Positions 8,358-44,802 of a stretch of DNA of 64,000 nucleotides are shown here, piece by piece. How positions within the stretch are numbered: position 1 is the stretch's first letter; every line of letters begins with the position of its first letter. The notes beneath the pieces were generated by a model, which was given only the letters and a program-made list of their open reading frames with translations, was not told where the DNA came from and did not search any database. The stretch is from Mycobacteriales bacterium (GTDB lineage: Bacteria > Actinomycetota > Actinomycetes > Mycobacteriales > SCTD01), in the NCBI GenBank assembly GCA_030697205.1, contig JAUYQP010000025.1:1-64000 (forward strand), read 5' to 3'. The translations under genes were made by a program, and so were the position numbers.

Positions 8358-8378
8358 GTTGGGGCAGGATGGCGCCCC

Positions 8379-9946
<1,568 letters not shown>

Positions 9947-9970
9947 TCCGTGCTACTCACCGGTCACCAC

Positions 9971-9976: not shown

Positions 9977-9983
9977 CGGTCGC

Positions 9984-11502: not shown

Positions 11503-11522
11503 GCCCCGCAGTCTGCCCCGCC

Positions 11523-11528
11523 TACGCT
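11523..11528 (+). promoter_or_regulatory. leaderless -10 box (TACGCT) for the catabolic operon
   Basis: TACGCT lies 6 nt before ATG 11535 in a 32-bp divergent gap. A CAGACT 7 nt ahead of the opposite ATG (11502) may serve the DUF1697 gene. Confidence 0.5.
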
Positions 11529-11534
11529 TCGAGC

Positions 11535-14337: not shown

Positions 14338-14978
14338 TCGACCAGCTCGTCACCGTGGGCCGCAAGGCCGTGGCGGCTGGTCTCGTCATCGGCTCGGGCG
14401 GCAACCTGTCGGCCCGTGAGCCGGGGGCCGACACCTGCGTCGTGACCGCGAGCGGCACCTGGCTCGACGAGCTCGACCGGGAGGCGTTCTCCGTCGTGCG
14501 GATCTCCGACGGGGCCGTGGTCGGCGGGCACCCGACGCCGTCGAGCGAGGTGCCGCTGCACCTCGCGACCTACCGGGTCCGGCCCGACGTCAACGCCGTC
14601 GTGCACCTGCACCCGCAGACCTCGGTGCTGCTCGACGCGCTCGGGCACCAGATCAGGCTGCTGACGATCGACCACGCCTACTACGTCCGCGAGGTCCGCT
14701 CGACGCCCTTCATCCAGAGCGGCACGCAGGAGCTCGCCGACGCGGGGGCCGCTGCTGTGGCCGACGGCTGCAACTGCGTGATCCTCGGCCACCATGGTTG
14801 CTCGGCGCTGGGGACCACGGTCGAGGAGGCCCACAAGCGGGCAGCCAACCTCGAGGAGGCCGCGCGCGCGACGTTGACGATGCTGCAGCTCGGGGACACG
14901 ACGACGGTCTGCCCGCCGTCCTACCTCGAGACGATCCGCGCCAAGGAAGCCGCGGCTGCCGGCCCGGCCGGTCACTAG
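14325..14978 (+). CDS. class II aldolase/adducin family protein (fuculose-phosphate aldolase-like)
   Basis: A 217-residue class II aldolase-fold enzyme. Zinc ligands are visible as the His-X-His of VVHLHPQTS and the later His of ILGHHGCSALGT, with the catalytic Glu in TPSSEVPLHLATYR. The N-terminal GLVIGSGGNLSARE loop binds the substrate phosphate in L-fuculose-1-phosphate, rhamnulose-1-phosphate and ribulose-5-phosphate family members. With the FGGY kinase next door, the likely role is cleavage (or epimerisation) of a ketose 1-phosphate. GTG start. Confidence 0.9.
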   Translation: MPDLIDQLVTVGRKAVAAGLVIGSGGNLSAREPGADTCVVTASGTWLDELDREAFSVVRISDGAVVGGHPTPSSEVPLHLATYRVRPDVNAVVHLHPQTSVLLDALGHQIRLLTIDHAYYVREVRSTPFIQSGTQELADAGAAAVADGCNCVILGHHGCSALGTTVEEAHKRAANLEEAARATLTMLQLGDTTTVCPPSYLETIRAKEAAAAGPAGH

Positions 14979-21568: not shown

Positions 21569-21880
21569 TCAGCAGCAGTCGGCCGAGGAGGTGACCGCGG
21601 CCCGCTCCGCCATCGCCGACAGCCGGGTGGCGAGCTCCGCGAGGGTGTCGGCTCGCAGCCGGTAGAACGTCTTCGTGCTGCAGGTCGTGGACTCCACGAT
21701 GCCGGCCTCGCGCAGCACCTTGAGGTGGTGGGAGACCAGCGGCTGGGACAGCCCGGTCAGGCCGACGAGGTCCTTCACGGCGAGCTGGCGGTCGACGAGC
21801 AGCTTCACGATCGCGGCCCGGTTGTCCTCCGCGAGCGCGTGCAGGATCACCGAGGTGTCCACGGTCGGCAGGGACGTCAC
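21569..21880 (-). CDS. ArsR-family transcriptional regulator
   Basis: A 103-residue winged-helix repressor: helix-turn-helix VKDLVGLTGLSQPLVSHHLK followed by VLREAGIVE and a wing with TTCSTKTFYRL. The C-terminus ends SSADCC; together with Cys in the wing (STTCST) these cysteines may sense metal or arsenic, but the exact CXC site of ArsR/SmtB is not seen. GTG start overlaps the phosphorylase stop. It sits between the phosphorylase and nitrile hydratase genes and may control the operon, possibly in response to cobalt. Confidence 0.88.
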   Translation of the reverse strand: MTSLPTVDTSVILHALAEDNRAAIVKLLVDRQLAVKDLVGLTGLSQPLVSHHLKVLREAGIVESTTCSTKTFYRLRADTLAELATRLSAMAERAAVTSSADCC

Positions 21881-22608
21881 GTGGCCATCGTGGCACGGAC
21901 CAGTGAGAGCGCGGCGTCGAAGACGGCGACCGACGCCCGGGCCTGCGCCGCCCGCTCCTCGTCGGTGAAGGCGTCGGTCCAGGAGCGTCCCGGCAGCTCG
22001 TCCCAGACGAAGAGCGCGGCGGCCGCGCGCATGCCGAAGGCTGCGGCGGCGCTGAAGACCGCCGAGGTCTCCATGTCCACGCCCAGGTGGCCACCGGCCG
22101 CCCAGGCCTCGACGAGCTCGACCGGCTGCACGAGCAGCGCATCAGTCGTCACCGTCGCGCCGACGTGCCGCGGCACCGCCGGGTCGAGCCCGTCGGCGAG
22201 GCGGCGGACGAGGGCGGGGTCGGCGTACGACTGGATCGACCCTCCGTAGTAGCGCGAGGCTCCCTCGGCGATGGTGGCCGCGGTCGGCAGCACGACGTCG
22301 CCGGTGCTCACGCCCGGCTGGAGGCCGCCGCACGACCCGACCTGCACGACGACGGGGGTGCCGCAGGTGCCGAGCGCGTGGACGGGCTCGACGGCCCGCG
22401 GGGAGCCGTAGGCGGTGCAGTAGGCGACGGGGACCTCGTCGAGGCGGCCCCACCACAGGTCGGGCATCCCGGTCTCGCGGACGTCGGTGAGCAGCGGCAG
22501 TCGCGCGTCGAGCGCCTTCTGCCGCCACCAGGTGCCCTCGAGCACGAGCAGCTGCGGCACCTCGTCGTCGGCGAGGCCCAGCAGGGTCAGCCACTGCGCG
22601 CGGTCCAT
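21877..22608 (-). CDS. nucleoside phosphorylase (purine/uridine phosphorylase family)
   Basis: A 243-residue PNP/UDP-family enzyme. Motifs: VVQVGSCGGLQPGVSTGDVV (phosphate and ribose loop) and GVDMETSAVFSAAAAFGM (ribose-binding Met-Glu and structural Ser), ending with an Asp-containing WDELPGRSWTD loop in the base-binding region. It cleaves nucleosides to base plus ribose 1-phosphate. ATG 22608 has a TAATCT box 6 nt upstream. It is the first gene of the operon that continues through arsR and nitrile hydratase, an unusual pairing suggesting that the nitrile substrate may be nucleoside-derived, for example a preQ0-like base; this is inference. Confidence 0.88.
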   Translation of the reverse strand: MDRAQWLTLLGLADDEVPQLLVLEGTWWRQKALDARLPLLTDVRETGMPDLWWGRLDEVPVAYCTAYGSPRAVEPVHALGTCGTPVVVQVGSCGGLQPGVSTGDVVLPTAATIAEGASRYYGGSIQSYADPALVRRLADGLDPAVPRHVGATVTTDALLVQPVELVEAWAAGGHLGVDMETSAVFSAAAAFGMRAAAALFVWDELPGRSWTDAFTDEERAAQARASVAVFDAALSLVRATMAT

Positions 22609-22614
22609 CAACGC

Positions 22615-22624: not shown

Positions 22625-22631
22625 CTTGGGC

Positions 22632-23789
22632 ATGGTGCGCGTCGCGGTGCTGGGTGCAGGTCCGACAGGTCTCGAGACCGCGCTGGCTGCGACGCAGCGC
22701 GGCTGGGACGCGGTCGTCTACGAGCAGGCGCCGACCGTCGCCGGTCACGTCCGGCGGTGGGGGCACGTGCGGCTGTTCACGCCGTGGTCGATGAACGTCT
22801 CGCCGCGCGCCGCATCCGCCGTCGGTGTCCCGGCGGACGGCGAGTGCCCGACGGGGGCGGACTACGCCGAGCACCTCGACCGGGTCGCGGCGCTGCTGCC
22901 CGACGTCCGGTTGTCGACCCAGGTCGTGAGCATCGCCCGCGAGGGCCTGCTGAAGAACGAGGAGATCGGCTCCGACGTCCGCGCCGGTCGTCGCTTCCGG
23001 CTGCTGCTCGACGGCCCGTCCGGCGAGGTGGTCGAGCACGCCGACGTCGTCATCGACACCACCGGCACCTGGTCGAACCCCAACCCGCTCGGCCACGGCG
23101 GCATCCCCGCGCCGGGCGAGCGGTCGCTGGCTGACCGTATCGTCCGCGAGATCCCCGCCGTCGACGCGACCTGGGCCGACCGGGAGGTGCTGCTCGTCGG
23201 TGCGGGCAACAGCGCGCAGACCGTCGCCCGCGACCTCGCCGCCGTCGGTGCCCGCGTCACCTGGGCGGTCCGTCGCGCGACCCCGACGTGGGGTGCGGTC
23301 GAGGGTGACGTCCTGCCCGACCGCGTCGAGCTGGTCGCCTCCTCGCGCCGGATCGCGGCCGGTGAAGTGCCCGGCGCGCGGGTCGTCACCGGTGTCGTCG
23401 TCGAGTCCCTGCGCGACCACGACGGGCGTACGGCGGTGACGCTGCTGTCCCTCGCCGACTCCTCCACCGAGGAGGTCGTCGTCGACGTCGTCGTGTCGAT
23501 GACCGGGGCGGTCGGCGACAGCTCGCTCTACCGCCAGCTGCAGGTCCACGAGTGCTACGCGACCGAGGGCCCGATGAGCCTGGCCGCCACGCTGCTCGGG
23601 TCCGAGGGCGGCGACTGCCTCACCCAGGTCTCCGCGGGCGTCGACGCGCTGCGTAACCCGGAGCCGCGCTTCTTCGTCCTCGGGTCGAAGTCCTACGGGC
23701 GCAACAACACCTTCCTGCTGCGGGTCGGCTGGGAGCAGGTCGAGGAGGTCTTCACCGCCCTCGACGCCGAGCTGCTGGCGCCGGTCTGA
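22632..23789 (+). CDS. FAD-dependent NAD(P)-binding oxidoreductase
   Basis: A 385-residue flavoprotein with two dinucleotide-binding motifs: VAVLGAGPTGLETALAA at the N-terminus (FAD) and VLLVGAGNSAQTVARDLAAV at about residue 190 (NADPH). IDTTGTWSNPNPLGHGG matches the flavin monooxygenase/thioredoxin-reductase-like (Pyr_redox_3) group. The substrate is unknown. The TAGGGT box 7 nt upstream decides for ATG 22632 over a TTG two codons earlier. It is divergent from the nitrile hydratase operon through a shared control site, so co-regulation is likely. Confidence 0.85.
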   Translation: MVRVAVLGAGPTGLETALAATQRGWDAVVYEQAPTVAGHVRRWGHVRLFTPWSMNVSPRAASAVGVPADGECPTGADYAEHLDRVAALLPDVRLSTQVVSIAREGLLKNEEIGSDVRAGRRFRLLLDGPSGEVVEHADVVIDTTGTWSNPNPLGHGGIPAPGERSLADRIVREIPAVDATWADREVLLVGAGNSAQTVARDLAAVGARVTWAVRRATPTWGAVEGDVLPDRVELVASSRRIAAGEVPGARVVTGVVVESLRDHDGRTAVTLLSLADSSTEEVVVDVVVSMTGAVGDSSLYRQLQVHECYATEGPMSLAATLLGSEGGDCLTQVSAGVDALRNPEPRFFVLGSKSYGRNNTFLLRVGWEQVEEVFTALDAELLAPV

Positions 23790-29548: not shown

Positions 29549-30214
29549 TCAGGCGAGCGCAGGGGTGAGGTCGACGACCTCGTCGCACAGGCGCTGGACC
29601 TGCGCCGGGTCGTGGCTGACGAGCAGGACGGTACGGCGGCCGCGCAGGCCCTGGACCGAGGCCTCCACCGTCGCGCGGCTGCCGGCGTCGAGCGCAGAGG
29701 TCGGCTCGTCGAGCAGCAGCACGACCGGGTCGAGGGCGAGGGCGCGAGCGAGGCAGAGCCGCTGGCGCTGACCGACCGACAGGGTGTCGGCGCGGTCGTC
29801 GAGCCGGTCCTCGACCTCGGCGAGCAGGCCCGCCTCCTCCAGGGCGGCGACGGCACGAGCGCGCAGGTCGCGGGCCGGCGCGCGCACGACGTGGCGCAGC
29901 CCGAACAGCGCGTTGTCGAGCACCGACCCGGGGAAGACCACGGGTGTCTGGCCGACGAGGAGGGCGCGGGCGCGCAGATCGGCGAGCGAGCCGGCGCCGT
30001 CGAGCCGCTGGCCCAGCAGGCGCAGCTCGCCGTCGGCGGTGAGCCCCTCGGGGAGCAGCCCGACCAGGGCCCGCAGCAGCGTCGACTTGCCCACGCCGGA
30101 CGGTCCGACGAGGCCGACCGTGGTGCCGGCGGCGACAGCGAAGGACACCGGCCCGACGAGGGTCCGCTCGGCGGTGCGGACCGACAGTCCGGTGACGGAG
30201 ACGGCAGCGGTCAC
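29549..30214 (-). CDS. ABC transporter ATP-binding protein (phosphate-type operon)
   Basis: A 221-residue ATPase. Walker A GPSGVGKST, Q-loop VGQTPVVFPGSV, signature LSVGQRQRL (Gly of LSGGQ replaced by Val), Walker B VVLLLDEPTSALD and the switch His in VSHDPAQV are all visible. It is about 30 residues shorter than PstB. Position directly behind the PstS and fused PstC-PstA genes suggests it powers that importer. GTG 30214 is preferred because GGAG lies 8 nt before it. Resemblance to FetA-type ATPases leaves the exact family open. Confidence 0.85.
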   Translation of the reverse strand: MTAAVSVTGLSVRTAERTLVGPVSFAVAAGTTVGLVGPSGVGKSTLLRALVGLLPEGLTADGELRLLGQRLDGAGSLADLRARALLVGQTPVVFPGSVLDNALFGLRHVVRAPARDLRARAVAALEEAGLLAEVEDRLDDRADTLSVGQRQRLCLARALALDPVVLLLDEPTSALDAGSRATVEASVQGLRGRRTVLLVSHDPAQVQRLCDEVVDLTPALA

Positions 30215-30239
30215 GGGGTCCACTCCGGGAGGTGGGAGG

Positions 30240-32021
30240 TCACGAGGTGCGCTCCAGGCGGCGGCGGGCGGGGACGGCGGCGAGCAGCAGCAGGCCGGCG
30301 AGGACGACGAGCACCAGGGCGGCGCCCCAGGCGTTGGCGATCGACGCCGGGTCGGCGGCGTCCTGGGCGAGGGTGAAGACGTGCGACGGCAGCGCCTGCA
30401 CCGGCTGCTGCACGACCCCGCTCGGCAGGGACGGCGCACCCGCGAAGACGGTCGCGGTGAACAGCAGCGGGGCGGTCTCGCCAGCCGCCCGGGCGAGTCC
30501 GAGCAGCAGCCCGGTGAGGACCGCGGGCCGCGCGTGGGGGAGCAGCACGGAGCGGATGAGCTGCGACCTCGACAGTCCGAGCGCGAGGGCCGCCTCGCGC
30601 CGCTCCGGGGCGAGCGAGTCCAGCCGTGCGGCGGTCGTCAGGGCCACGACGGGCACGACGACGATCGCCAGCACGATCGCTCCGGCGAGCCACGACTTGC
30701 CCCAGCCGAGCGCGGTCGAGAAGACGGCGTAGCCGGCGAGGCCCAGCAGGATCGTCGGCACGCCGCCGAGGGTCAGGGTCGCGGTGCGCAGGGCCCGGAC
30801 GGTGCGCGGCGAGGCGTACTCCCCGAGCACCAGCCCGAGGCCGAGACCCACGGGCAGCGCGAGGACCCCGGCTGCCGCGACCAGCAGCACCGTCCCGAGG
30901 ATCTGGTCACGCACTCCGCCACCGCTCGCCCCTGTCGAGGCCGAGGTCCAGAACGCCGGGTCGAGCGCCACCGATCCCCGGTCGAGCAGCAGCACGGCCA
31001 CGCCGGTCAGCAGGGCCAGGGGGAGCGCGACGGCGCCGAGCCGCACGGACCGCCGAGCGGCACAGCGCAGCTCGCGGGCAGGAAGGGCACGACCCCGGCG
31101 TACGCCGGAAGGCCTGCCCCGCCGGCCACTCGCTCCCGCGACCGTGGCTGCGGCGACCGCGAGCAGCAGCAGGAGGCCGACGGCGCAGAGCGCGGCGCGG
31201 TGCGGCCCGACGGCGCCCGCGAGGACGGGCTCGGGCCCGCCGAGCTTGGTCGTGAGGGACTGCCCCGGCTCGAGCATCGAGCGCAGCGCGGAGGCCGGGT
31301 CGGGGAGCCGCCCGTCGGCGCGGCCGATGACGAGGAAGACCGCGATCGTCTCGCCGAGCGCGCGGGCGAGGCCGAGCAGGACCCCGGCCCGCATGCCGGG
31401 GCGGGCCAGCGGCAGGACGGCGGAGCGGACCACCTCCGAGCGGGTCAGGCCGAGCGAGGCCGCGGCCTCCCGGACCGCCGCGGGGACGGCGGCGAGGGCG
31501 TCGACGCTGACCGCGACCACCGTCGGCAGGACCATCACGGCGAGCACCAGTCCCGCGGCCAGCAGGCTGTCGCCGCCGGGCACGTCGCCGAGCCGCGAGA
31601 CGAAGGGCCGCACCGCGGCGATGCCGACCAGGCCGTAGACGATCGAGGGCACCGCCGCGAGCAGCTCGACACCGGTGCGCAGCGGCCGGGCGAGGCCGGG
31701 CGGGACGTGCTCGTGCAGGGCGATCGCCGCCGCCCAGCCGACAGGGACGGCGAGCAGCAGCGCGACGCCACTGACCGCGAGGGTGCCCCAGAGCATCGCC
31801 GTGACGCCGAAGTCGCCGGTGGGCGGGTTCCACGTCGACGAGGTGAGCAGCCGTCCCCAGTCGAGGTCACCGGCGCGCAGCCCGTCGACGAGGAAGCCGA
31901 CGACGAGCAGCGCGGACAGCGCCGCGAGGACGCCACCCGCGGCCCCGAGGGCGGGCACCCAGTGGGGGGCCCGCGGTCGGGGAGTCGCCGCGGCGACCGC
32001 CCGGAGCGCGGTGGAGGTCAC
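30240..32021 (-). CDS. fused phosphate ABC transporter permease (PstC-PstA in one chain)
   Basis: A 593-residue membrane protein made of two permease halves. The first (about 1-295) has PstC features (WNPPTGDFGVTAMLWGTL, VPSIVYGLVG, ARALGETIAVFLVIG). The second (about 320-593) has PstA features (GVRDQILGTVLLVAAAG, GGVPTILLGLAGY, ARAAGETAPLLFTATVF). Each contains the EAA-type cytoplasmic loop (REAAASLGLTRSEVVR; REAALALGLSRSQLIR). In most bacteria these are separate genes pstC and pstA. GTG 32021 overlaps the pstS stop. Confidence 0.9.
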   Translation of the reverse strand: MTSTALRAVAAATPRPRAPHWVPALGAAGGVLAALSALLVVGFLVDGLRAGDLDWGRLLTSSTWNPPTGDFGVTAMLWGTLAVSGVALLLAVPVGWAAAIALHEHVPPGLARPLRTGVELLAAVPSIVYGLVGIAAVRPFVSRLGDVPGGDSLLAAGLVLAVMVLPTVVAVSVDALAAVPAAVREAAASLGLTRSEVVRSAVLPLARPGMRAGVLLGLARALGETIAVFLVIGRADGRLPDPASALRSMLEPGQSLTTKLGGPEPVLAGAVGPHRAALCAVGLLLLLAVAAATVAGASGRRGRPSGVRRGRALPARELRCAARRSVRLGAVALPLALLTGVAVLLLDRGSVALDPAFWTSASTGASGGGVRDQILGTVLLVAAAGVLALPVGLGLGLVLGEYASPRTVRALRTATLTLGGVPTILLGLAGYAVFSTALGWGKSWLAGAIVLAIVVVPVVALTTAARLDSLAPERREAALALGLSRSQLIRSVLLPHARPAVLTGLLLGLARAAGETAPLLFTATVFAGAPSLPSGVVQQPVQALPSHVFTLAQDAADPASIANAWGAALVLVVLAGLLLLAAVPARRRLERTS

Positions 32022-32890
32022 GTCGTCAGCTGGGCCAACGTGAGGTAGCCATGCGTGGTGAGGAGCTCCTGGCCCTTCGCCGACAGGACGTAGTCGATGA
32101 AGGTCTTGGCGGCACCGGTGGGCGGGCCGTCGGTGACGAAGTAGAGCGGGCGCGACATCGGGTAGCTCGAGTCGGCGATCGTGGCCGCCGTCGGCGCGAT
32201 GCCCTCGACGGAGAGCACGGCGAGCTGCGGGTAGCCGTCGGCGAAGGCGCTCGACAGGGGCACGACCGAGCCGGGGGTCGACAGCAGCTTGGTGCGGGTC
32301 TCCTCGTTGCCGCCGACGATGGCGTAGCGGGGGTTGTCGGCCGGCGGTGCCGGGGCCTTCTCGCCCTTGGCGTAGAGGAACGTGTCGAGGACCTCACGGG
32401 TGCCGCGGCCGGGCTCCTTGTCGTAGACGAACGTCTCGAGGTCGGGCCCGCCGATCTCCTTCCAGTTGCGCACCCTGCCCTCGAACAGCGCGCGCAGCTG
32501 GGCCTTGCTGATGTTGCGCAGGCCGCCGTCGACGACCTCCTTGCGGACGACGACACCCACCGCGTCCTGACCGATGAGAGTCGCGGTGAAGTCGATGCCG
32601 GGGGCCTTGGCCTTGTCGTCGTCGGACACCGGCTTGCTGCTCATCGCGATGTCGATCTGCTTCGCGCCGAGCTGGGTGATGCCGCCGGCCGAGCCGCCCT
32701 GGGTGTCGACAGTGATGGTGAGGCTGTCGCTGCGGAGGGCTTCGGCCGCGTCGGCCGCGACCGGGTTGACCGTCGTCGAGCCGCTGATGCGCAGGGTGCT
32801 CGAGGAGGCGGCCTCGGAGCCTCCGCCGCAGCCGGACAGCAGGAGGGCGGCGACGAGGCCGCCGGTGATCAGGGGCAGGGTGCGACGCAC
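32018..32890 (-). CDS. pstS: phosphate-binding lipoprotein (PstS-like)
   Basis: A 290-residue substrate-binding lipoprotein: lipobox LLSGC at about residues 17-21, then the phosphate-family pattern LRISGSTTVNPVAADAAEAL, GGSAGGITQLGAKQIDIAMS, KEPGRGTREVLDTF and the end segment FIDYVLSAKGQELL. SGSTT and GRGTR correspond to phosphate-contact loops. It captures phosphate at the membrane for the fused permease. GTG start. The 110 bp upstream contain a 9-bp direct repeat that could bind a phosphate regulator. Confidence 0.92.
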   Translation of the reverse strand: MRRTLPLITGGLVAALLLSGCGGGSEAASSSTLRISGSTTVNPVAADAAEALRSDSLTITVDTQGGSAGGITQLGAKQIDIAMSSKPVSDDDKAKAPGIDFTATLIGQDAVGVVVRKEVVDGGLRNISKAQLRALFEGRVRNWKEIGGPDLETFVYDKEPGRGTREVLDTFLYAKGEKAPAPPADNPRYAIVGGNEETRTKLLSTPGSVVPLSSAFADGYPQLAVLSVEGIAPTAATIADSSYPMSRPLYFVTDGPPTGAAKTFIDYVLSAKGQELLTTHGYLTLAQLTT

Positions 32891-34274: not shown

Positions 34275-34871
34275 TCAGGGGCGTGAGGGTAGTCGTCGCC
34301 CGGACAGCAGCGCGGCCGCCACGGAGGCGAACCACACGTCGACGACGCCCAGCCCGAGCCGCTGGCACAGCCCCGCGACCTCAGGCACCGCGACCGAGCA
34401 GACCAGCGCGCCCGCGGACACAGCCGTCACGGCGTACGACGCTGCCGCGGTCGGCCCGCGCAGCCGCGCGCGGGCGAGCAGGGCGGGGCTGACAGCGGTC
34501 GCGACGTAGCCGGAGCCGGCGGCGACGGCGTGGAGCAGGTCTGTCGTCGTACCCCCCTCGAGTGAGAGCGGGGTCAGGGCGACGCCGAGGGTGGCGAGGC
34601 CGCTGAACGCCACCGTGGCGGTGACGGCCCGCGGCCCGCCGGCCCGGCCGAGAGCGCGGGCGAAGACCGGCAGCAGCACGCCGAAGCCGACGAAGCCGGC
34701 GGTCATGAGCGGCCGGGTGTCGGCGCCCTGCTCGGCGAGGCGGCTGATCGTGGTCGAGACCGGGTCGTAGCCGTCGCGGCGCGCGCCGGCCACGGCCCAC
34801 GCGGTGATGAAGGACGCGGGGGCAGCGATGCCGCAGGCGAGCGCGAGCCGGCCCGGCGCGGTGCGCTTCAG
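34275..34871 (-). CDS. DUF998-family membrane protein
   Basis: About 198 residues with six hydrophobic helices; the ACGIAAPASFITAWAVAG first helix, DPVSTTISRLAEQGADTRPL loop and following helices match DUF998. Function unknown. The start is unclear: no ATG, GTG or TTG precedes the first helix, and the frame enters from within the methyltransferase gene through CTG codons at 34871, 34874 and 34877. A CTG start overlapping the upstream TGA is assumed; the next standard codon would remove the first helix. Confidence 0.65.
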   Translation of the reverse strand: MKRTAPGRLALACGIAAPASFITAWAVAGARRDGYDPVSTTISRLAEQGADTRPLMTAGFVGFGVLLPVFARALGRAGGPRAVTATVAFSGLATLGVALTPLSLEGGTTTDLLHAVAAGSGYVATAVSPALLARARLRGPTAAASYAVTAVSAGALVCSVAVPEVAGLCQRLGLGVVDVWFASVAAALLSGRRLPSRP

Positions 34872-36037
34872 CAGCAGCCGCTGTCGGGGGCGCAGGCGGC
34901 GGTCGACATGCCGGCCACCGCGCGGCGCAGGGGAGCGGACGTGCCCGTGGCGGTCGCCGTCGCGGGCGGGGCGCAGGCGAACAGCGGGGCGGTCGCCGGG
35001 TCGACCGGCTCGGCCGGCTCGAGCAGCTCGAAGAACTCGCCGTAGGGCGCGCGGCTGAGGATCTCGAAGGTCTTGGCGCAGACCGCGGTCGGGACGCCGC
35101 GCTCGTAGACGTGCTCGTCGTCGTCGACGACCGCGCTCCACGGGCCCTTGAAGATGACGGCCTGGCCGTGGTCGTAGCAGGGGCCCTGCTTGCCCTTGTA
35201 GGCGACGACGGTCACCGAGCGGAACTCGATGCCCTCGACCGTCTGCCACGGGGCGCTGTCGCGCTTGTCGAGCACGACGCCGTAGAAGCCGGCGTCGAGG
35301 AAGGCCTGCAGGAACGCCTCCTCCTGGAAGGCGCCGGAGATGCAGCCGCTCCACAGGTCGGCGTCGGCGCGCAGGTGCTCGGGCACCTCGACGTCGCTGA
35401 CGATGTCGGAGATGACGGCGCGGCCGCCGCGCTTGAGGACGCGGAAGATCTCCGCGAACAGCGCCGGCTTCTCGTCGTGGGCGACGAGGTTGAGCACGCA
35501 GTTGGACACGACCGCGTCGACGGAGGCGTCGCCGACGAGCGGCTGCTCGAGGCGCTGCGTCGCGACGTGGGCCTCGTAGGCCTGCAGCGACGCGAGGTCG
35601 CTGACCGGGTGGGCGGCGAGGTAGGCCTCGGTGCCCGCGACGTCGAGCCGCATGTCCTGGATCTTGCCCTTGCGGAACTCCACGTTGGAGTAGCCGACGG
35701 CCTCGGCGACCTTGGGCTCGGCGCTGCGGGCCAGGTCGAGCATCTCGTCGGTCATGTCGACGCCGATGACGCGACCCTCGGCGCCGACGACCTGCGAGGC
35801 GATGAAGCAGATCTTGCCGCCGCCGCTGCCGAGGTCGAGGACGGTCTCGCCCGCGAGCAGGTGGGTGCTCGGGTCACCGCAGCCGTAGTCACGGTCGAGC
35901 ACCTCCTGCGGGATGACGGTCAGGAAGCGGGGGTCGTAGTCGACGGGGCAGCACAGCGCCGCCTCGACGGCCTGCGCCCCGGCGCCGTAGCGCTCGGAGA
36001 CAGCCTGCTCGACCTCGGTGTTGGTAGTCAGGGTCAC
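34868..36037 (-). CDS. ArsM-like SAM-dependent methyltransferase
   Basis: A 389-residue class I methyltransferase. The SAM motif is ETVLDLGSGGGKICFIASQV (64-83) followed by GVDMTDEML, as in arsenite methyltransferases. Cysteines suited to As(III) binding occur at 29-30 (ALCCPVDYD), 53 (YGCGDPS), in VVSNCVLNLV and at the C-terminus (SGCC). The GKIQDM segment replaces the usual ArsM pattern. A ~130-residue C-terminal extension follows. GTG 36037 has AGAAGGAA upstream, 15 bp after the radical SAM gene, so the two form one operon. Arsenic methylation, or methylation of another soft element or metabolite, is inferred. Confidence 0.8.
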   Translation of the reverse strand: MTLTTNTEVEQAVSERYGAGAQAVEAALCCPVDYDPRFLTVIPQEVLDRDYGCGDPSTHLLAGETVLDLGSGGGKICFIASQVVGAEGRVIGVDMTDEMLDLARSAEPKVAEAVGYSNVEFRKGKIQDMRLDVAGTEAYLAAHPVSDLASLQAYEAHVATQRLEQPLVGDASVDAVVSNCVLNLVAHDEKPALFAEIFRVLKRGGRAVISDIVSDVEVPEHLRADADLWSGCISGAFQEEAFLQAFLDAGFYGVVLDKRDSAPWQTVEGIEFRSVTVVAYKGKQGPCYDHGQAVIFKGPWSAVVDDDEHVYERGVPTAVCAKTFEILSRAPYGEFFELLEPAEPVDPATAPLFACAPPATATATGTSAPLRRAVAGMSTAACAPDSGCC

Positions 36038-36052
36038 GGACGTTCCTTCTCT

Positions 36053-37747
36053 TCAGACGGCGCAGTTGTAGACGAGCGGGAGGGATCCGTCGTTGCGACG
36101 GAGGACGAGGAAGCGCTCCACGGCGAGCCGCTTGGCCTCGGCCAGCGGCACCCACTCGTCGACCGAGGGGTGCCGGGCGAGCAGCATGTCCGGGCTGGTG
36201 CCGACGTCGGCACCAGCCGGGTGCCAGTGGACGCCGTCGGCGGTGACGGCGAGCTCGGGCACGGTGTTGGTGTCGGCGATCTCGGCACCCGTGGTGGACA
36301 CGCCACGGGCGACGAGCGGCCGGACCGCGAAGTCCTTGCCGGTGATGCCCATGTCGGCGAGCAGCGCGCGCAGCGGCTCGACCTCGTGCTCGTTGTCGGG
36401 CGTGGACGTCATGCCGACCCGCACGGGCAGGCCGAGGTCCTTGGCGAGGCGCAGCCCGTCCATGGCCTTCTGCCAGGACCCCTCGCCCCGGTTGACGTCG
36501 TGACCCGCAGGCGACGCGGCGTCGATGGACGTCTGCAGCACCAGACGCTCGCGACCGGCGAGGCGCTTGAGCTGCTCGAGGCGGTAGCCCTGGTAGAGCA
36601 TGCCGTTGGTGAGCAGCACGACGTCGAGCTGCTCGGTCGCGTAGAGGACCATGTCGACGATGTCGGGCTCGAGGAAGGGCTCGCCACCGGTCATGTAGAC
36701 CTCGGTGAAGCCCTCGGCGACGGCCTCGTCGACGAGCATCTTCACCCGCTCCAGCGACACCGACCGGCGCCGGGCCTGCGGGCTGCTCGCCACGCTGCAG
36801 TAGGAGCAGGCGAGGTTGCAGTGGAAGTTGGTGTAGAGCCACAGACGCGGCGGGAACAGCGCCGAGCCGAACAGCGGCACCACCGGCAGGCCGTCGTCGA
36901 CGACTTCGGGCGCGTCGGCCCAGCTGACCTGCTCCTGGTCGAAGGAGTCCGGCAGCGCCGAGCGGTAGAGCTGGTAGCGGCCACGTGACCGCTCGGCAGG
37001 CGGGACGACCTCGAGGCAGGTGGTCCACCAGCCGGTCTCGACGGTCTCGACGAAGGCCTCGGGCAGGCCGCCGGCGCGCATCGACGCGGCCTGGGCCTCC
37101 CAGTCGTACTCCAGCGGGACCAGCTCGGCGGTGGCCTTGCCGTCCTCGAGGTCGACCAGGGCGTACCAGACGTGGCGGCCACCGTCGTTGGCCGGCCGGC
37201 CCAGCACGCCGACGTTGACGACGAGGGTGTCGCCGACCTGCTTCTGCCACGGCAGCCCGGAGTGGGTGCACATGACGAGGTCCGCGCCGGACTCCTGCAC
37301 GCGCAGCGTGTGCTGCAGGTCGTCGAGCGACTCCCACCAGAAGTCGTTGAGGGCCAGCGTCGAGCCGTGGACCAGGTGGATCGACACGCCGTCGACCTCG
37401 AGCCGGCGCTCGGTGTCGAGGGTCGTCATCCACTGCGCGTAGTCGCGGCTGGTGTGGGCGAGGGTGTAGTCGTACATCAGCTGCGCGAACTCGTTGTCGC
37501 GCGGGTCGGTGTAGCCGCAGCCGCACTCGGTGTCGCCGCGGCCGATCGCGACGTCGTAGTTGCCGGCGATGCACTCGATGCCCTCGTCGAGCAGGATCGG
37601 CCAGACCGCGTCGGGCTCGGCGCCGTAGCCCCCGAGGTCGCCGAGGTTGAACAGCCGCTCGGCGCCGCGGGCGCGGGCATCGGCGACGAAGGCGCGCAGC
37701 GCGTAGGGGTTGGAGTAGACACCACCGCTGACGGCGATCCGGGTCAT
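36053..37747 (-). CDS. metallophosphoesterase-like domain fused to radical SAM enzyme
   Basis: A 564-residue two-domain protein. Residues 1-250 follow a calcineurin-like phosphoesterase: FNLGDLGGYG, AGNYD, LVHGST, CTHSGLPW and VNVGVLGRP match the family motifs, but the first metal motif is SGGVYSN instead of D-x-H-x-N and GNHD is GNYD, so metal binding is altered. Residues about 300-500 are a radical SAM domain with the cluster motif Cys310-x3-Cys314-x2-Cys317 (FHCNLACSYC) and MTGGEPFLEP. The junction has GWWTTCLEVVPP. It is coupled to an ArsM-like methyltransferase. Probable role: building a modified, perhaps arsenic-containing, metabolite. Confidence 0.85.
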   Translation of the reverse strand: MTRIAVSGGVYSNPYALRAFVADARARGAERLFNLGDLGGYGAEPDAVWPILLDEGIECIAGNYDVAIGRGDTECGCGYTDPRDNEFAQLMYDYTLAHTSRDYAQWMTTLDTERRLEVDGVSIHLVHGSTLALNDFWWESLDDLQHTLRVQESGADLVMCTHSGLPWQKQVGDTLVVNVGVLGRPANDGGRHVWYALVDLEDGKATAELVPLEYDWEAQAASMRAGGLPEAFVETVETGWWTTCLEVVPPAERSRGRYQLYRSALPDSFDQEQVSWADAPEVVDDGLPVVPLFGSALFPPRLWLYTNFHCNLACSYCSVASSPQARRRSVSLERVKMLVDEAVAEGFTEVYMTGGEPFLEPDIVDMVLYATEQLDVVLLTNGMLYQGYRLEQLKRLAGRERLVLQTSIDAASPAGHDVNRGEGSWQKAMDGLRLAKDLGLPVRVGMTSTPDNEHEVEPLRALLADMGITGKDFAVRPLVARGVSTTGAEIADTNTVPELAVTADGVHWHPAGADVGTSPDMLLARHPSVDEWVPLAEAKRLAVERFLVLRRNDGSLPLVYNCAV

Positions 37748-37814: not shown

Positions 37815-39221
37815 TCAGTCGGCCAGCCGGGTGACGACGTGCTTGACCCGGGTGTAGTCACGCAGGGAGTACGCCGACAGGTCGCTGCCCCAGCCGCTGC
37901 TCGCGTAGCCGCCGTGCGGCATCTCCGTCGCGAGGACGGAGTGGCAGTTGACCCACACGGCCCCGAAGTCGAGCGCGGCGGCGCAGCGGTGGGCGCGGGC
38001 GGTCGAGGTCGTCCAGACGCTCGCGGCCAGGCCGTAGGGGGTGTCGTTGGCGACCCGCAGGGCGCTCTCCTCGTCGTCGACGGCCGTCACCGTCACGACC
38101 GGGCCGAAGACCTCCACCTGGGCGAGCTCGTCGTCGGGACGGACCCCGGCGATGACGGTCGGGGCGAAGTAGTAGCCGGTGCCGGGCAGCGGCTGGCCGC
38201 CCGCGACGAGGGAGGAGTGCGGGCCGCGGCGGTCGACCAGGCCGCTCACCCGCGCGAGCTGGTCGGCGTTGTTGAGCGCCCCGACGTAGCCCTCCGGCCC
38301 GACCGGCAGGGCCCGCGCCTCGGCGGCCAGCCGGCGTACGAGCTCGTCGTGGACGCCACGGGTGACCAGCACCTTGGTCGCGGCGGTGCAGGACTGGCCG
38401 GCGTTGTAGTAGCCGATGTCGCGCAGGCCCGCGACCGTGACGTCGAGGTCGGCGTCGTCGAAGACGAGCACAGGGGCCTTGCCGCCGAGCTCGAGGTGCA
38501 GCCGCTTGAGGCCGCCGGCCGCGGCCGCCATGACCTCGCGGCCGGCGCGCACCGAGCCGGTCAGGGCCACCATCGCGGGGACAGGGTGCTCGACCATCAG
38601 CTGTCCGGTGCCGCGGTCGCCGCAGACGACGTTGAGGACGCCGGGCGGCAGGTGCTCGGCGGCGATCTCGGCGAGCATCAGCGGGGTGACCGGGGTGGTC
38701 TCCGCCGACTTCAGCACGACGGTGTTGCCGGCCGCGACGGCCGGCGCCCACTTCCAGGTCGCCATCATCAGCGGGTAGTTCCACGGGGTGATCTGGGCGA
38801 TCACGCCGAGCGGCTCACGGCGCAGCACGGAGGTGTGGCCTTCGGCGTACTCCCCGGCGGCGAGGCCGTCCGGGACGCGGCTCGCCCCGGCGCTGAAGCG
38901 GATGACGTCGACGATGTGGGGAACCTCGGCGCGCATCTGCGCGACCGGCTTGCCGGTGTTGCGGCACTCGGCCTCGACGAGCTCCTCGGTGCGGGCCTCG
39001 AGCGCGTCGGCGAGGCGGAGCAGCGCGAGCGACCGGGCGGCGGGGGTCGTGCGCTTCCAGCCGGGGAAGGCCGCGGCCGCGCTCGCGAAGGCCTCGTCGA
39101 GGTCCTCCTGGCCGGCGACCGGCGCGTCGTCGTAGGGGAGCCCGTCGGAGGGGTCGACGACGCGGGTCGTCAGGTCCGAGCGCGGCGCCTGCCGGGCCCC
39201 GTCGTAGAAGTGGTGCAGCAC
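37815..39221 (-). CDS. aldehyde dehydrogenase (aminobutyraldehyde/betaine aldehyde type)
   Basis: A 468-residue NAD(P)-dependent aldehyde dehydrogenase. Motifs: ITPWNYPLMMATWKWAPAVA, catalytic Glu in LHLELGGKAP, and catalytic Cys in YNAGQSCTAATKV; EVFGPVVTV closes the cofactor site. Sequence style is that of gamma-aminobutyraldehyde or betaine aldehyde dehydrogenases. GTG 39221 lies one base past the stop of the upstream AMP-ligase gene, so both are in one operon. Together they could oxidise an aldehyde and activate the acid; the substrate is unknown. Confidence 0.92.
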   Translation of the reverse strand: MLHHFYDGARQAPRSDLTTRVVDPSDGLPYDDAPVAGQEDLDEAFASAAAAFPGWKRTTPAARSLALLRLADALEARTEELVEAECRNTGKPVAQMRAEVPHIVDVIRFSAGASRVPDGLAAGEYAEGHTSVLRREPLGVIAQITPWNYPLMMATWKWAPAVAAGNTVVLKSAETTPVTPLMLAEIAAEHLPPGVLNVVCGDRGTGQLMVEHPVPAMVALTGSVRAGREVMAAAAGGLKRLHLELGGKAPVLVFDDADLDVTVAGLRDIGYYNAGQSCTAATKVLVTRGVHDELVRRLAAEARALPVGPEGYVGALNNADQLARVSGLVDRRGPHSSLVAGGQPLPGTGYYFAPTVIAGVRPDDELAQVEVFGPVVTVTAVDDEESALRVANDTPYGLAASVWTTSTARAHRCAAALDFGAVWVNCHSVLATEMPHGGYASSGWGSDLSAYSLRDYTRVKHVVTRLAD

Positions 39222-39222
39222 G

Positions 39223-40791
39223 TCACGAGGTTAGGCGAGCGCGCAGGGACTGCTTGTCGGTCTTGCCGACGGCGTTGCGGGGCAGCGCGTCGACGAGCTC
39301 GACGACCTTGGGTGCGGCGTAGTCGGCCATCCCCTCCCGCACCCAGGCCCGCACCTCGGCGGCGGTCAGCGGACCGGCCGCCACCACGAACGCCGCGACC
39401 GCCTCACCGCCGAGTGCGTCCGGGACCCCCACGACCGCGGCGTCGTCGATCGCCGGGTGTCGGCGCAGCAGCTCCTCGACCTCCGCGCTGAAGACCTTCG
39501 TGCCGCCCCGGTTGATCATGTCTTTGGTGCGGTCGAGCACGTAGACGTGGCCGTCGGCGTCGAGCCGCGCGACGTCACCGGTGTCGAACCACCCGTCGAC
39601 GATCGCGGCCGCCGTCGCCTCGGGGTCGCGGCCGTAGCCGGTCGTCACCAGCGACCCGCGCAGCCACAGCTGTCCCGGCTCGCCGGCCGGCAGGACGCGG
39701 CCGTCGTCGTCGCGGACCTCCGCCTCCATGCAGGGCAGCGTCCGCCCGACCGAGCCGGGGTGCGCGCGCACGACGTCGTCGGTCGCGATGCAGCCGGGGG
39801 AGTGCGTCTCGGACAGCCCGTAGACGTCGTGCAGCCGCACCCTGGGCAGTCGCGCCCGCAGCTCGTCGACGAGGTCGGTCGGGAACGGCGCACCGCCCGC
39901 GGCGAGGCGCGTGAGCGACGGCAGGTCGCGGAAGGCCTCGACCCGCAGGCACAGCCGCCACCACGACGGCACGGCGTAGGCCCAGGACACCCGGTGCTCG
40001 CGCAGCAGGGCGACGTAGTCGCGCGGGGACTGGGTGTCGACGAGCACGCAGCTCGCGCCGGCCAGCATCGCCGGCAGCACGTGGGCGTGCATCGCCGAGA
40101 TGTAGTACATCGGGAACAGCACGGCCGTCACGTCGTCGGGCCCGAGCTGCAGCACCCGCTGGTAGCTCATCGCCGAGTGCACCGACGCGCGGTGGACGAC
40201 CTGGCTGGCCTTCGGCCGACCGGTCGTCCCCGAGGTGAAGACCACGGCGTACGTCGAGGACTCCTTGGGCTGGTCAGTCCTGTCGTAGGACCAGGGCTGC
40301 GGGTCGGCCTCGCGCAGCACCTCGGCCAGTGGGAGCGCGCCGGGCAGCGGGAAGCGAGGCTCGGCCAGCACCAGCCGGACCTGCATGTGCTCGACCATGT
40401 AGTCCCACTGCGGCGGGGCGAGCCGGGTGTTGAGCCCGACCATCACCAGCTCGGCGCGGGCGCACGCGAAGAGCAGGGTCGCGAGGTCGAGGGAGTTGCC
40501 GGCGGCGACCGCGACGGCGTCGCCGGGCACGAGCCCGCGGGCCAGCAGCGCGGCGGCCGCGGTCTCGACCCGGTCGGCGAAGGCGGCGTAGGAGACGACC
40601 TCGTCACCGTCGACGAAGGCGGTCCGGTCCGGCCAGCGGCGGACCGCCCGGTCGAGCACGTCGAGGACGGTGGCCGGCCGGCGCGCGTAGGACAGCGCCG
40701 GCGCCCCGAGCCAGGTCTCGACGACGACCGGGTCCCCCGGCCGGTCGTCGACGTCGTGGAGGACGAGGCCGTCCGTGTCTGGCGCTTGCAT
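39223..40791 (-). CDS. AMP-dependent acyl-CoA synthetase/ligase
   Basis: A 522-residue ANL-superfamily enzyme. The AMP-binding P-loop is VVFTSGTTGRPKASQ, followed by YGLSETHSPG (A5 motif), GWFDTGDVARLDADG (A7) and LDRTKDMINRGG (A8 hinge), and the catalytic Lys in LPRNAVGKTDKQ. It activates a carboxylic acid as an adenylate and transfers it, most likely to CoA. It begins at ATG 40791 and is cotranscribed with the aldehyde dehydrogenase. A TA operon is divergent 62 bp away. Confidence 0.92.
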   Translation of the reverse strand: MQAPDTDGLVLHDVDDRPGDPVVVETWLGAPALSYARRPATVLDVLDRAVRRWPDRTAFVDGDEVVSYAAFADRVETAAAALLARGLVPGDAVAVAAGNSLDLATLLFACARAELVMVGLNTRLAPPQWDYMVEHMQVRLVLAEPRFPLPGALPLAEVLREADPQPWSYDRTDQPKESSTYAVVFTSGTTGRPKASQVVHRASVHSAMSYQRVLQLGPDDVTAVLFPMYYISAMHAHVLPAMLAGASCVLVDTQSPRDYVALLREHRVSWAYAVPSWWRLCLRVEAFRDLPSLTRLAAGGAPFPTDLVDELRARLPRVRLHDVYGLSETHSPGCIATDDVVRAHPGSVGRTLPCMEAEVRDDDGRVLPAGEPGQLWLRGSLVTTGYGRDPEATAAAIVDGWFDTGDVARLDADGHVYVLDRTKDMINRGGTKVFSAEVEELLRRHPAIDDAAVVGVPDALGGEAVAAFVVAAGPLTAAEVRAWVREGMADYAAPKVVELVDALPRNAVGKTDKQSLRARLTS

Positions 40792-40812
40792 GACGGCATC
40801 GTGCAGCAGGCA

Positions 40813-40851
40813 GGCATTGCCAGGGCATTGCCCTACGTCGTACCCTACGTC
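40813..40851 (+). promoter_or_regulatory. tandem-repeat operator and promoter of the second toxin-antitoxin operon
   Basis: GGCATTGCC appears at 40813-40821 and 40824-40832 (11-bp period), and CCCTACGTC at 40831-40839 and 40843-40851 (12-bp period). A TACCCT box (40841-40846) lies 6 nt before GTG 40853. The repeats are likely binding sites for the ribbon-helix-helix antitoxin encoded next. Confidence 0.55.
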
Positions 40852-40852
40852 C

Positions 40853-41080
40853 GTGACCGTGAAGACGAGCGTCTACCTCGATGACCGTGACAAGGCTGCG
40901 CTCGCGCGTCTTGCCCAGTCCTCGGGCACCAGCGAGGCCGAGCTGCTCCGTCGTGGGGTCCGGCTCGTCCTCGAGCAGGCAGCCGCGCCGCGCCCACACC
41001 TCGCACTGGGCGCCAGCACCGACGGCAGGTCCGCTGCCGACAGCGACGATCTGCTCGCCCTTCACGGCTTCGGGGAGTGA
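40853..41080 (+). CDS. vapB: ribbon-helix-helix antitoxin (VapB)
   Basis: A 75-residue protein with an N-terminal ribbon-helix-helix: VKTSVYLDDRDKAALARLAQ, then SGTSEAELLRRGVRLVLEQ. The C-terminal tail is acidic (SAADSDDLLALHGFGE), as in toxin-neutralising arms. GTG 40853 is chosen with a TACCCT box 6 nt upstream; GTG 40859 is an alternative. It overlaps the toxin start (GTGA). It should autorepress via the tandem repeats upstream. Confidence 0.88.
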   Translation: MTVKTSVYLDDRDKAALARLAQSSGTSEAELLRRGVRLVLEQAAAPRPHLALGASTDGRSAADSDDLLALHGFGE

Positions 41081-41502
41081 GCCCGCTCGTCTGCGACACG
41101 AGCGGGATCCTCGCGGCGCTCGACACCGCCGACCCGGCGCACGAGCCGTGCCGGGCCGTGCTCCAGACGTGGTCGGGCGCGCTCGTGCTAAGCCCCTTGG
41201 TGCTCGCCGAGCTGGACTTTCTCGTCCGGGCGCGGCTGGGAGCCGACGTGGCGCGTCGCGTCGCCGACGACGTCGCTGCGGGTGCCTACCGGCTCGAGGC
41301 ACTCGGTGCCGAGGACGTCGCGCGCTGTGTCGCGGTGGACCGCTCGCACCGCGACCTGGGCGTCGGCCTCGCAGACGCGAGTGTCGTGGTGCTGGCTGAG
41401 CGGGTCGCGACCAACGCGCTGCTGACCCTCGACGAGCGGCATTTCCGGGTGCTGCGCCCGTTAGGCGGGGGGTCGTTCCGACTGCTTCCCGCTGATGCGT
41501 GA
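41077..41502 (+). CDS. vapC: PIN-domain ribonuclease toxin (VapC)
   Basis: A 141-residue PIN domain of a different subgroup from the one at 19161. Acidic active-site residues: Asp in LVCDTSGILAALD, Glu in VLAELDFLVRAR, Asp in VGLADASVVVLAE and the pair in LLTLDERHFRV. GTG start overlaps the antitoxin stop. It is expected to be an RNase restrained by the RHH antitoxin. Confidence 0.9.
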   Translation: MSPLVCDTSGILAALDTADPAHEPCRAVLQTWSGALVLSPLVLAELDFLVRARLGADVARRVADDVAAGAYRLEALGAEDVARCVAVDRSHRDLGVGLADASVVVLAERVATNALLTLDERHFRVLRPLGGGSFRLLPADA

Positions 41503-43114: not shown

Positions 43115-43702
43115 GTGTGTGACGTGAGCGACACCCGGGCGGCACTCCTCGACGCGGCGGCCGATGCCGTCCTGCACGGCGACTGGGCGCGCACCCGGAT
43201 GGCCGACGTCGCCCGCGCCGCCGGGGTCTCGCGCCAGACGCTCTACTACGAGTTCGGCACCAAGGACGCCCTCGCCGAGGCGCTCGCGCTGCGCGAGGCG
43301 GAGCGCTACATGACCGGCGCAGAGGCCGCAATGGTCGACCACGACGGCTCGCCCGCGGAGGCGATCGGCGCGGCCACCGAGTTCACCCTGCGCGAGGCCG
43401 CGAGCAACCCGCTGCTCAAGGCGGTGCTCACCGACAGCCGGATGGAGGGGGCCGGCGCGATGCTGCCCTACCTCACGACCCGCGCCGACGGCATCCTCAC
43501 GGCGGTGCGTGAGCGCATCGCGGCGTACTGCTCCTCGCACTGGCCGGACCTGCCCGTCGACGAGGTCGACCTCGTCGCGGACACGGTCGTGCGCCTCACC
43601 GTCTCCCACCTCGTGCTGCCGGGTGCCCGACCTGACCAGACCGCCACCTCCATCGCCCACCTCGTCGACCGACTGCTGCCCTCCGGAAGGACCGCCAGAT
43701 GA
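43115..43702 (+). CDS. TetR-family transcriptional regulator
   Basis: A 195-residue TetR protein: N-terminal helix-turn-helix RTRMADVARAAGVSRQTLYY with the FGTKDALAEALALREAE continuation, then a helical ligand-binding domain. GTG 43115 is used; GTG three codons on is an alternative. It overlaps the diiron gene (ATGA), so it regulates its own operon, probably through the palindromes at 43068-43112. The ligand is unknown; the RQTLYYEF style is frequent in regulators of lipid and xenobiotic genes. Confidence 0.92.
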   Translation: MCDVSDTRAALLDAAADAVLHGDWARTRMADVARAAGVSRQTLYYEFGTKDALAEALALREAERYMTGAEAAMVDHDGSPAEAIGAATEFTLREAASNPLLKAVLTDSRMEGAGAMLPYLTTRADGILTAVRERIAAYCSSHWPDLPVDEVDLVADTVVRLTVSHLVLPGARPDQTATSIAHLVDRLLPSGRTAR

Positions 43703-44802
43703 GCACCCACGAGCTCTACACGATGCCCGCCGAGCTCTCGACCTGGGACGTCGAGGCGCACGGTGCCGCGCGCTTCACCTGGGAGTACGACGACCAGCGC
43801 GACCAGCTGCTGCGGCTCTACCAGAAGGGCAAGGACAAGCAGTGGGACCAGGTGCACCGCATCGACTGGTCCGAGCAGGTCGACCCCTATGACCTGCTGG
43901 GCATGCCGGAGGAGGCCATCTCCATCCACGGCACCCCCATGTGGGACAAGCACTTCGCCAAGGACCAGAAGGCCAAGGACGAGCTCGGCCTGCACCTCGG
44001 GGCGTGGCAGTTCAGCCAGTTCCTGCACGGTGAGCAGGGCGCGATGATCTGCTCCGCGCGCATCGTGGAGTCGGTGCCGGACCTCGACTCGAAGTTCTAC
44101 GCCGCGACGCAGACCATGGACGAGGCGCGCCACGCCGAGACCTACGCCCGCTTCCTGCAGGAGAAGGTCGGGCTGCTCTACCCGATCAACCCGCACCTCA
44201 AGGCGCTGCTCGACGACACGCTGTCCGACAGCCGCTGGGACATGCCCTACCTCGGGATGCAGGTCCTCATCGAGGGCCTCGCGCTGGCCGCCTTCGGTCT
44301 GCTGCGCGACATGACGACCAAGCCCCTGCCCAAGCAGATCCTTGCCTACGTCATGCAGGACGAGGCGCGCCACGTCGCCTTCGGCCGGATCGCCCTGCGC
44401 GACTACTACGCGCAGCTCACGTCGGCCGAGCTGGCCGAGCGCGAGGAGTTCGTCGTCGAGGGCTGCTACCTCATGCGCGACCGCTTCCGGCAGCAGGAGG
44501 TCTGGGAGAACATGGGCCTCGACGTCGAGGCCTGCCTCGAGGCGGTCTCGCAGGCGCCCTACTTCCAGGCCTACCAGTCGCTGCTCTTCCAGCGGATCGT
44601 GCCGTGCGTCAAGGACATCGGGCTGTGGTCGGACAAGGTCCAGAAGGCCTACGCCGACATGGGCGTGCTCGACATGGAGGGCATCGACCTCGACGCCCTC
44701 ATGAAGAACGACGAGGACACCGCCGAGCTCATCGACGCCGAGAAGCGCGAGATGGCCGCCCGCAAGGGCCAGGTCGACCAGGTGATCGCGCTCGCGGACT
44801 GA
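43699..44802 (+). CDS. ferritin-like diiron protein
   Basis: A 367-residue all-helical protein with a carboxylate-bridged diiron site: Glu in FLHGEQGAMI, Glu-x-x-His in DEARHAETYARF, Glu in VLIEGLALAAF and Glu-x-x-His in QDEARHVAFGRI. This two-EXXH layout is that of ribonucleotide-reductase-like/AurF-like oxygenases and other ferritin-like oxidases. Reaction unknown: likely oxygen-dependent hydroxylation, desaturation or N-oxidation. Controlled by the overlapping TetR gene. No reductase partner is adjacent. Confidence 0.85.
   Translation: MSTHELYTMPAELSTWDVEAHGAARFTWEYDDQRDQLLRLYQKGKDKQWDQVHRIDWSEQVDPYDLLGMPEEAISIHGTPMWDKHFAKDQKAKDELGLHLGAWQFSQFLHGEQGAMICSARIVESVPDLDSKFYAATQTMDEARHAETYARFLQEKVGLLYPINPHLKALLDDTLSDSRWDMPYLGMQVLIEGLALAAFGLLRDMTTKPLPKQILAYVMQDEARHVAFGRIALRDYYAQLTSAELAEREEFVVEGCYLMRDRFRQQEVWENMGLDVEACLEAVSQAPYFQAYQSLLFQRIVPCVKDIGLWSDKVQKAYADMGVLDMEGIDLDALMKNDEDTAELIDAEKREMAARKGQVDQVIALAD

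Follow-up and report, generated by a model that had tools for sequence, protein, structure and literature searches.

What does a protein that joins a phosphoesterase-like domain to a radical S-adenosylmethionine (SAM) domain do beside an arsenic methyltransferase? The question is raised by two genes in the 64,000-nucleotide stretch at positions 1 to 64,000 of contig JAUYQP010000025.1 of a Mycobacteriales bacterium, an actinobacterium of soil type (GenBank assembly GCA_030697205.1), which we call the window. An original prediction, made from the sequence of the window, described a 564-residue fusion encoded 15 bp upstream of an ArsM-like methyltransferase gene and guessed at an organoarsenical or similar product. 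On the basis of sequence and modelling, we consider the fusion to be an undescribed enzyme in which an arsenate-reductase-like domain is joined to a radical SAM domain, beside an arsenic methyltransferase. The link of the pair to arsenic is well supported. We give an even chance to the more specific reading that the two domains of the fusion work in organoarsenical biosynthesis, where the enzyme would bind or reduce arsenic and form a carbon-arsenic (C-As) bond by radical SAM chemistry, with methylation by ArsM.

Both open reading frames (ORFs) are real, and their coordinates, strand and lengths were borne out (Table 1). A spacer of 15 bp separates the stop codon of the fusion from the methyltransferase gene, and the ORF finder also offers a 602-amino-acid (aa) form of the fusion that starts at an upstream GTG. 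The join of a calcineurin-like to a radical SAM domain was confirmed by Pfam (Metallophos_2, 2.1e-11, residues 16-202; Radical_SAM, 3.4e-24, residues 309-460) and by an AlphaFold2 model with two well-formed domains and a mean predicted local distance difference test score of 86.5. In this model, a Car1-like calcineurin-fold domain (residues ~1-250) is followed by a linker of low model confidence (~240-295) and the radical SAM domain (~296-564). The N-terminal domain matches metallophosphoesterase structures (Z ~25 for 2gju/1nnw and 24.4 for 3qfm) and the C-terminal domain matches radical SAM structures (Z 22.6 for SkfB, 6efn, and 19.8 for BlsE, 7vob); these matches are statements on shape and say nothing of function. 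The CxxxCxxC, SGGVYSN and GNYD motifs and the GCC tail are all present as previously described. A scan of the collection added ~50 other genomes with full-length fusions, at identities of 58-87%; most of these genomes belong to Actinomycetota, and a few are bins that carry the label Acidobacteriota. Because of these homologues and the two well-formed domains, the fusion cannot be a chance artefact. Its distribution is nevertheless patchy, since a class-wide sample of 297 genomes contained a single further match.

According to the original prediction, a phosphoesterase would be foreign to arsenic systems. This view finds no support, as the nearest standalone relatives of the N-terminal domain sit in ars operons. 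Relatives were taken from plasmids, with eight ars-operon neighbourhoods and two non-ars ones; the eight operons encode ten standalone proteins, and Mucilaginibacter and Pedobacter have two paralogues each. Eight copies that bear a CxC pair all carry the motifs SD[IV]H, GNYD, CGC, VHG[ST] and GHTH and have an intact metal site. The two second paralogues lack CxC and carry GNHD instead of GNYD, and the combination of no CxC with GNH is common to them and both non-ars relatives. Because the CxC-bearing ars-operon proteins carry GNYD together with an intact metal site, we regard GNYD as the mark of an arsenic-linked branch; its earlier interpretation as a sign of decay is ruled out.

PMC12124457 describes a homologue from Paraclostridium dentum that is encoded in an arsR-orf1-acr3-arsM operon and shares ~40% identity with Car1, which is an arsenate reductase from Rufibacter tibetensis (Shen et al., 2024, doi 10.1111/mmi.15289, as cited in PMC12124457); Cys74 and Cys76 of the homologue are given there as the pair reported to be essential in Car1. 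The P. bifermentans protein has the same gene order around it as the P. dentum operon, and its CGC is C74-G75-C76. Residues C75-G76-C77 of the fusion align with this triplet, in a comparison that runs via the Paraclostridium homologue. The N-terminal domain of the fusion may therefore descend from, or be sister to, the Car1-type arsenate-reductase branch of metallophosphoesterases, a proposal that forms part of the reading given an even chance as a whole.

The alignment of 58 fused sequences reveals what this domain has kept and lost. The metal ligands D37, N63, H127 and H162 are invariant in 58/58 proteins, and so are C75, C77, C160, C244, C310, C314, C317 and C562, of which C160 and C244 are newly gained in the fusions. 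The change of motif I noted earlier is real: no fused protein has retained its Asp and His ligands or the final His of GHTH. Following the general metallophosphoesterase scheme, we take D37/N63/H127/H162 to be one metal site and the lost residues to belong to the other, and the intact two-metal site of a phosphoesterase is accordingly absent. Because the CxC pair and one metal site were kept, the second site was lost and C160/C244 were gained, the domain most likely handles an arsenical.

The lost ligands also speak for a different explanation, in which the N-terminal domain carries out no reductase chemistry and serves only to bind or recruit As(III), phosphate or a nucleotide. The radical SAM domain would then come in at a later stage of the pathway; it could, for instance, act on the sugar moiety of an arsenical that a separate enzyme has produced. 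A candidate for that enzyme is a 474-aa radical SAM protein of Streptomyces clusters, encoded near the fusion in 38 of 64 fusion loci, a non-random sample drawn from a search for close relatives; Roseomonas likewise has a second radical SAM gene. However, every fused protein keeps the CxC pair and all four ligands of one metal site, unlike a decaying scaffold, and no window gene groups with the 474-aa protein. We consider this explanation unlikely, though not negligible.

A split form of the enzyme exists. The same degenerate domain is encoded on its own by a plasmid of Roseomonas haemaphysalidis, where its motifs read FGGPYSN, DCGCGF and GHCG. Its gene stands in a run with phosphonate-type ATP-binding cassette (ABC) genes and a pair of radical SAM genes; one member of the pair is similar to the Rv1681 and ArsS families. 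When 27 domains were placed in a tree, the Roseomonas domain joined the fused clade with support of 96/92 on a long branch. The neighbourhood of a Marinobacter relative of the Roseomonas radical SAM gene was uninformative.

The ArsM-like nature of the methyltransferase is upheld by ArsM models, which match it best; the top one is the arsinothricin ArsM model NF040538, with 342 bits against a cut-off of 500. In alignments with solved ArsM structures, C53, C180 and C232 fall on the cysteines of YGCG, SNC and (GE)C, respectively, while C29/C30 pair with the N-terminal CC found in further ArsM proteins. Because of these alignments, the arsenic-binding cysteine set is considered present, with all four conserved arsenic-handling cysteines of ArsM kept, which settles the check proposed for the As(III)-binding residues.

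The CX3CX2C motif of the fusion (C310/C314/C317) and the fold of its C-terminal half place it in the radical SAM superfamily. The best family model is that of Rv1681 (NF049973), which scores 277.5 bits, under its cut-off of 380, and C562 matches the C-terminal Cys-Ala of that family. The ArsS model TIGR04167 gives 49 bits, under its cut-off of 300. In loci L067-L080, Rv1681-type radical SAM genes often have a gene of ~274 aa directly upstream, which is PhnD-like in several; in locus L101, an upstream gene of this type is annotated as PhnD/SsuA/transferrin family. The same locus encodes a 527-aa radical SAM protein (L101:9439-11019) that matches the TrsS and tetraether-synthase models and adjoins a methyltransferase gene.

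These neighbours bear on whether arsenic is the element concerned. PhnD-type binding proteins adjoin the fusion in four relatives and also adjoin Rv1681-type radical SAM genes, and the PhnD protein of locus L003 matches a selenate-binding model below its cut-off. Furthermore, selA, selB and selD lie beside a related cluster on a Miltoncostaea plasmid (L100:1724-16047), near a window-like radical SAM gene, GT2, DUF2064, PhnD and a second radical SAM gene. The pathway might thus be directed at an element or oxyanion other than arsenic (phosphonate, selenium or sulfonate), with arsenic-like parts recruited for related chemistry. Against this stand the neighbouring ArsM with all its cysteines, the Car1-type cysteine pair and the ArsR gene in the cluster, and we judge such a pathway to be quite improbable.

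The neighbourhoods of the 64 loci extend the arsenic connection. A TIGR04282 or TIGR04283 homologue lies at most two genes from the fusion in 57 loci, TIGR04283-like genes are near it in 55, and in locus L011 both proteins pass their cut-offs. An MTAP homologue is near the fusion in 37/64 loci, and a flavin adenine dinucleotide (FAD) oxidoreductase of the window type in 31/64. The proposed survey of the gene pair found an ArsM homologue near the fusion in 20 of the 64 loci (17 of the 37 flanked by 5 kb or more on each side), compared with none of 14 Rv1681-type control loci. The strict two-gene unit of the original prediction is therefore only partly retained: the two genes are adjacent, but the fusion often occurs without a neighbouring ArsM and the window pair sits in a larger cluster. 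A conserved simple two-gene unit is ruled out because no ArsM was seen near most fusions. The guess of an organoarsenical has been strengthened by the ArsM cysteines, by the likeness of the N-terminal domain to an arsenate reductase and by relatives beside TIGR04282/TIGR04283 and ArsM genes, with the metabolite itself putative. The fusion clusters of relatives probably build complex arsenic-carbon compounds.

From these observations we infer a substrate, a redox step, the formation of a C-As bond, an order of steps and a product. The N-terminal domain would take up an arsenical (arsenate or an organoarsenical) via its CxC pair and reduce it or hold it as As(III). The Rv1681-type radical SAM domain would then make the C-As bond; as in ArsS, the carbon partner is most likely that of the 5'-deoxyadenosyl group, which is suggested because nucleoside-phosphorylase genes are nearby (MTAP in Streptomyces and a PNP-family gene in the window). 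The adjacent ArsM would methylate the arsenic before or after this step. In Streptomyces-type clusters, the TIGR04282/TIGR04283 proteins may take the product on towards a glycoside that resembles an arsenosugar. In the window family, the isomerase, sugar kinase, aldolase, aldehyde dehydrogenase and acyl-coenzyme A (acyl-CoA) ligase would fit a route from arsenoribose through As-CH2-CHO and arsenoacetate to arsenoacetyl-CoA.

Table 1. Features of the window, with their occurrence in related genomes (G) and loci (L).
Feature	Coordinates	Strand	Remarks
Fusion gene	36053-37747	minus	564 aa; ATG at 37747
ArsM-like methyltransferase gene	34868-36037	minus	389 aa; GTG start; GCC tail
Aldehyde dehydrogenase (aminobutyraldehyde/betaine-aldehyde type)	37815-39221	minus	directly upstream of fusion; same place in L001/L111, L004/L109, L108
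Acyl-CoA ligase	39223-40791	minus	first gene of run; same place in L001/L111, L004/L109, L108
Pst-like phosphate-type ABC importer	29549-32890	minus	syntenic with ArsM and fusion in G016, G021, G022
Importer ATPase	29549-30223		
Importer fused permease	30240-32021		
Importer PstS-like binding protein	32018-32890		
FAD/NAD(P) oxidoreductase	22626-23789	plus	contiguous with cluster in G022
Nucleoside-phosphorylase-family protein	21877-22611	minus	in cluster of G016, G018, G021, G022
ArsR-type regulator	21569-21880	minus	CC tail; 53% identical to operon-heading ArsR of L004
Class II aldolase	14325-14975	plus	orthologue counts in text
FGGY sugar kinase	14978-16378	plus	next to class II aldolase
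Xylose-isomerase-like TIM barrel and Zn alcohol dehydrogenase	12596-14337	plus	
KAS, two ACPs, FabD, FabG, FabI, acyl-CoA dehydrogenase block	6927-12599		conserved near cluster; KAS also in fusion-negative family genomes
TetR-like regulator, then AurF-like N-oxygenase homologue	43115-44802		syntenic in family
Small ribbon-helix-helix-like and PIN-like ORFs	40775-41502		possibly a VapBC-type toxin-antitoxin pair (judged by eye)

Of the accessory genes named in this route, the acyl-CoA ligase and the aldehyde dehydrogenase belong, with a phosphate or phosphonate importer and an oxidoreductase, to the larger cluster of the window family. In G022 and L108, the order is PNP, FAD oxidoreductase, PstB, PstCA, PstS, ArsR, ArsM, fusion, aldehyde dehydrogenase, FabI-like and acyl-CoA ligase. 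The window has nearly this gene set, with additional genes at 23.8-29.5 kb, and in L003/L110 and L004/L109 a PhnD-PhnE-PhnC set sits between the fusion and ArsM. We compared 24 genomes of the family, six of them with the fusion, a small and partly incomplete sample for which Fisher p values ignore relatedness: the class II aldolase occurs in 6/6 fusion-positive and 1/18 fusion-negative genomes (p 5e-5), ArsM in 4/6 and 0/18 (p 0.0014), and the TIM-barrel isomerase in 3/6 and 0/18.

Nevertheless, the wider neighbourhood might be family synteny and not one pathway, so that the fusion and ArsM would be a small island for arsenic detoxification, next to lipid genes with no relation to it. A block of KAS, ACP, PNP and acyl-CoA ligase genes without fusion or ArsM in G017 and others favours this explanation. 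We find it unlikely, as the aldolase tracks the fusion even inside one genus (4/4 vs 0/5), and several genomes have the aldehyde dehydrogenase and acyl-CoA ligase genes immediately upstream of the fusion. Locus L117 (G017:C199:8001-28000), from a fusion-negative genome, has the same ArsR, ligase, FabI, PNP and KAS genes and an NMT1-type ABC importer in place of the Pst/Phn importers of fusion-bearing genomes. ArsR is weak as proof of arsenic control, given that L117 has the same ArsR type heading a block without the fusion. A dedicated fatty-acid synthase strictly tied to the fusion is also unsupported, with a KAS gene found in family genomes that lack the fusion.

Enzymes of the classes proposed for the arsenoribose route are known in the salvage of 5'-deoxyadenosine and methylthioadenosine, and the accessory enzymes of the window family would fit 5'-deoxyadenosine salvage equally well. 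The sugar kinase, aldolase, aldehyde dehydrogenase and acyl-CoA ligase may do no more than turn the 5'-deoxyadenosine that the radical SAM enzyme releases into dihydroxyacetone phosphate and acetaldehyde, and the latter to acetyl-CoA, while the product of the fusion bypasses them. The co-occurrence of the aldolase with the fusion agrees with this explanation; the Streptomyces fusion clusters, however, have TIGR04282/TIGR04283 genes instead and no such salvage genes within their flanks. We hold this role of the accessory genes to be a substantial, though minority, possibility. At the other extreme, the cluster might make an arsenic-headed acyl metabolite or arsenolipid directly from arsenate: after the first C-As bond is formed by the fusion, arsenoribose would be cut to arsenoacetaldehyde, which would be oxidised, activated with CoA and passed to the neighbouring fatty-acid-synthase-type genes. 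Such a product is a long shot.

Several points weigh against an organoarsenical-forming fusion. No activity is known to us among the fused homologues or within the Rv1681 family, and Car1-type catalysis may have disappeared with the lost metal site. In the 27-domain tree, which has long branches, it is uncertain where the fused clade stands with respect to the ars-operon proteins, and the fusion loci that show no ArsM within the fetched flanks are the majority. The 'arsenosugar' name of TIGR04282/TIGR04283 is an NCBI annotation label, and the function in these genes is putative; the window genome has no TIGR04283 protein above the cut-off. Nucleoside phosphorylase is unsupported as a family marker of the fusion, as it also occurs in some fusion-negative genomes, and the limits of the family sample given above count here as well.

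To our knowledge, few enzymes form C-As bonds apart from those of methylation. Our literature search found no publication on a metallophosphoesterase/radical SAM fusion and no report of a C-As-forming enzyme with its own arsenate-reductase-like domain. If our reading is true, radical SAM chemistry is tied to an arsenic redox domain in the fusion and in its split counterpart alike, the Rv1681 radical SAM family gains a possible chemical context, and the cluster in many Streptomyces and other actinobacteria becomes a testable source of organoarsenicals.

ArsS and ArsL are the known precedents for radical SAM C-As chemistry (PMC8552651; PMC12159101). The arsinothricin cluster resembles the window pair in having a radical SAM gene with CX3CX2C beside ArsM, and its ArsM has a similar length and four cysteines (PMC8552651). 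However, ArsL, to which a 3-amino-3-carboxypropyl transfer is ascribed, is a protein of 428 aa that is likened here by description, the window methyltransferase stays under the NF040538 cut-off, and no arsQ was seen at the window cluster. The arsenosugar pathway of ArsM and ArsS shares the combination of radical SAM protein, ArsM and nucleoside phosphorylase, and most relatives have TIGR04282/TIGR04283 genes; it differs in the low TIGR04167 score of the fusion and in the lack of TIGR04283 in the window genome. The bisenarsan (bsn) cluster of Streptomyces is likewise an actinobacterial organoarsenical cluster coupled to acyl chemistry, but it has no SAM-dependent enzymes and takes another route to the C-As bond (PMC12159101). 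The Rv1681 family (NF049973) is the top match of the radical SAM half and shares the conserved C-terminal Cys-Ala and, in some relatives, a PhnD-type neighbour, whereas Rv1681-type proteins have ~332 aa and no N-terminal domain. With the Car1-type arsenate reductase, the fusion shares the metallophosphoesterase fold, the CxC at the aligned place and relatives in ars operons, and GNYD is found in both the fusion and the Car1-like Paraclostridium protein. The standalone relatives compared here keep both metal sites; the fusion has lost one of them and gained two cysteines and a radical SAM domain.

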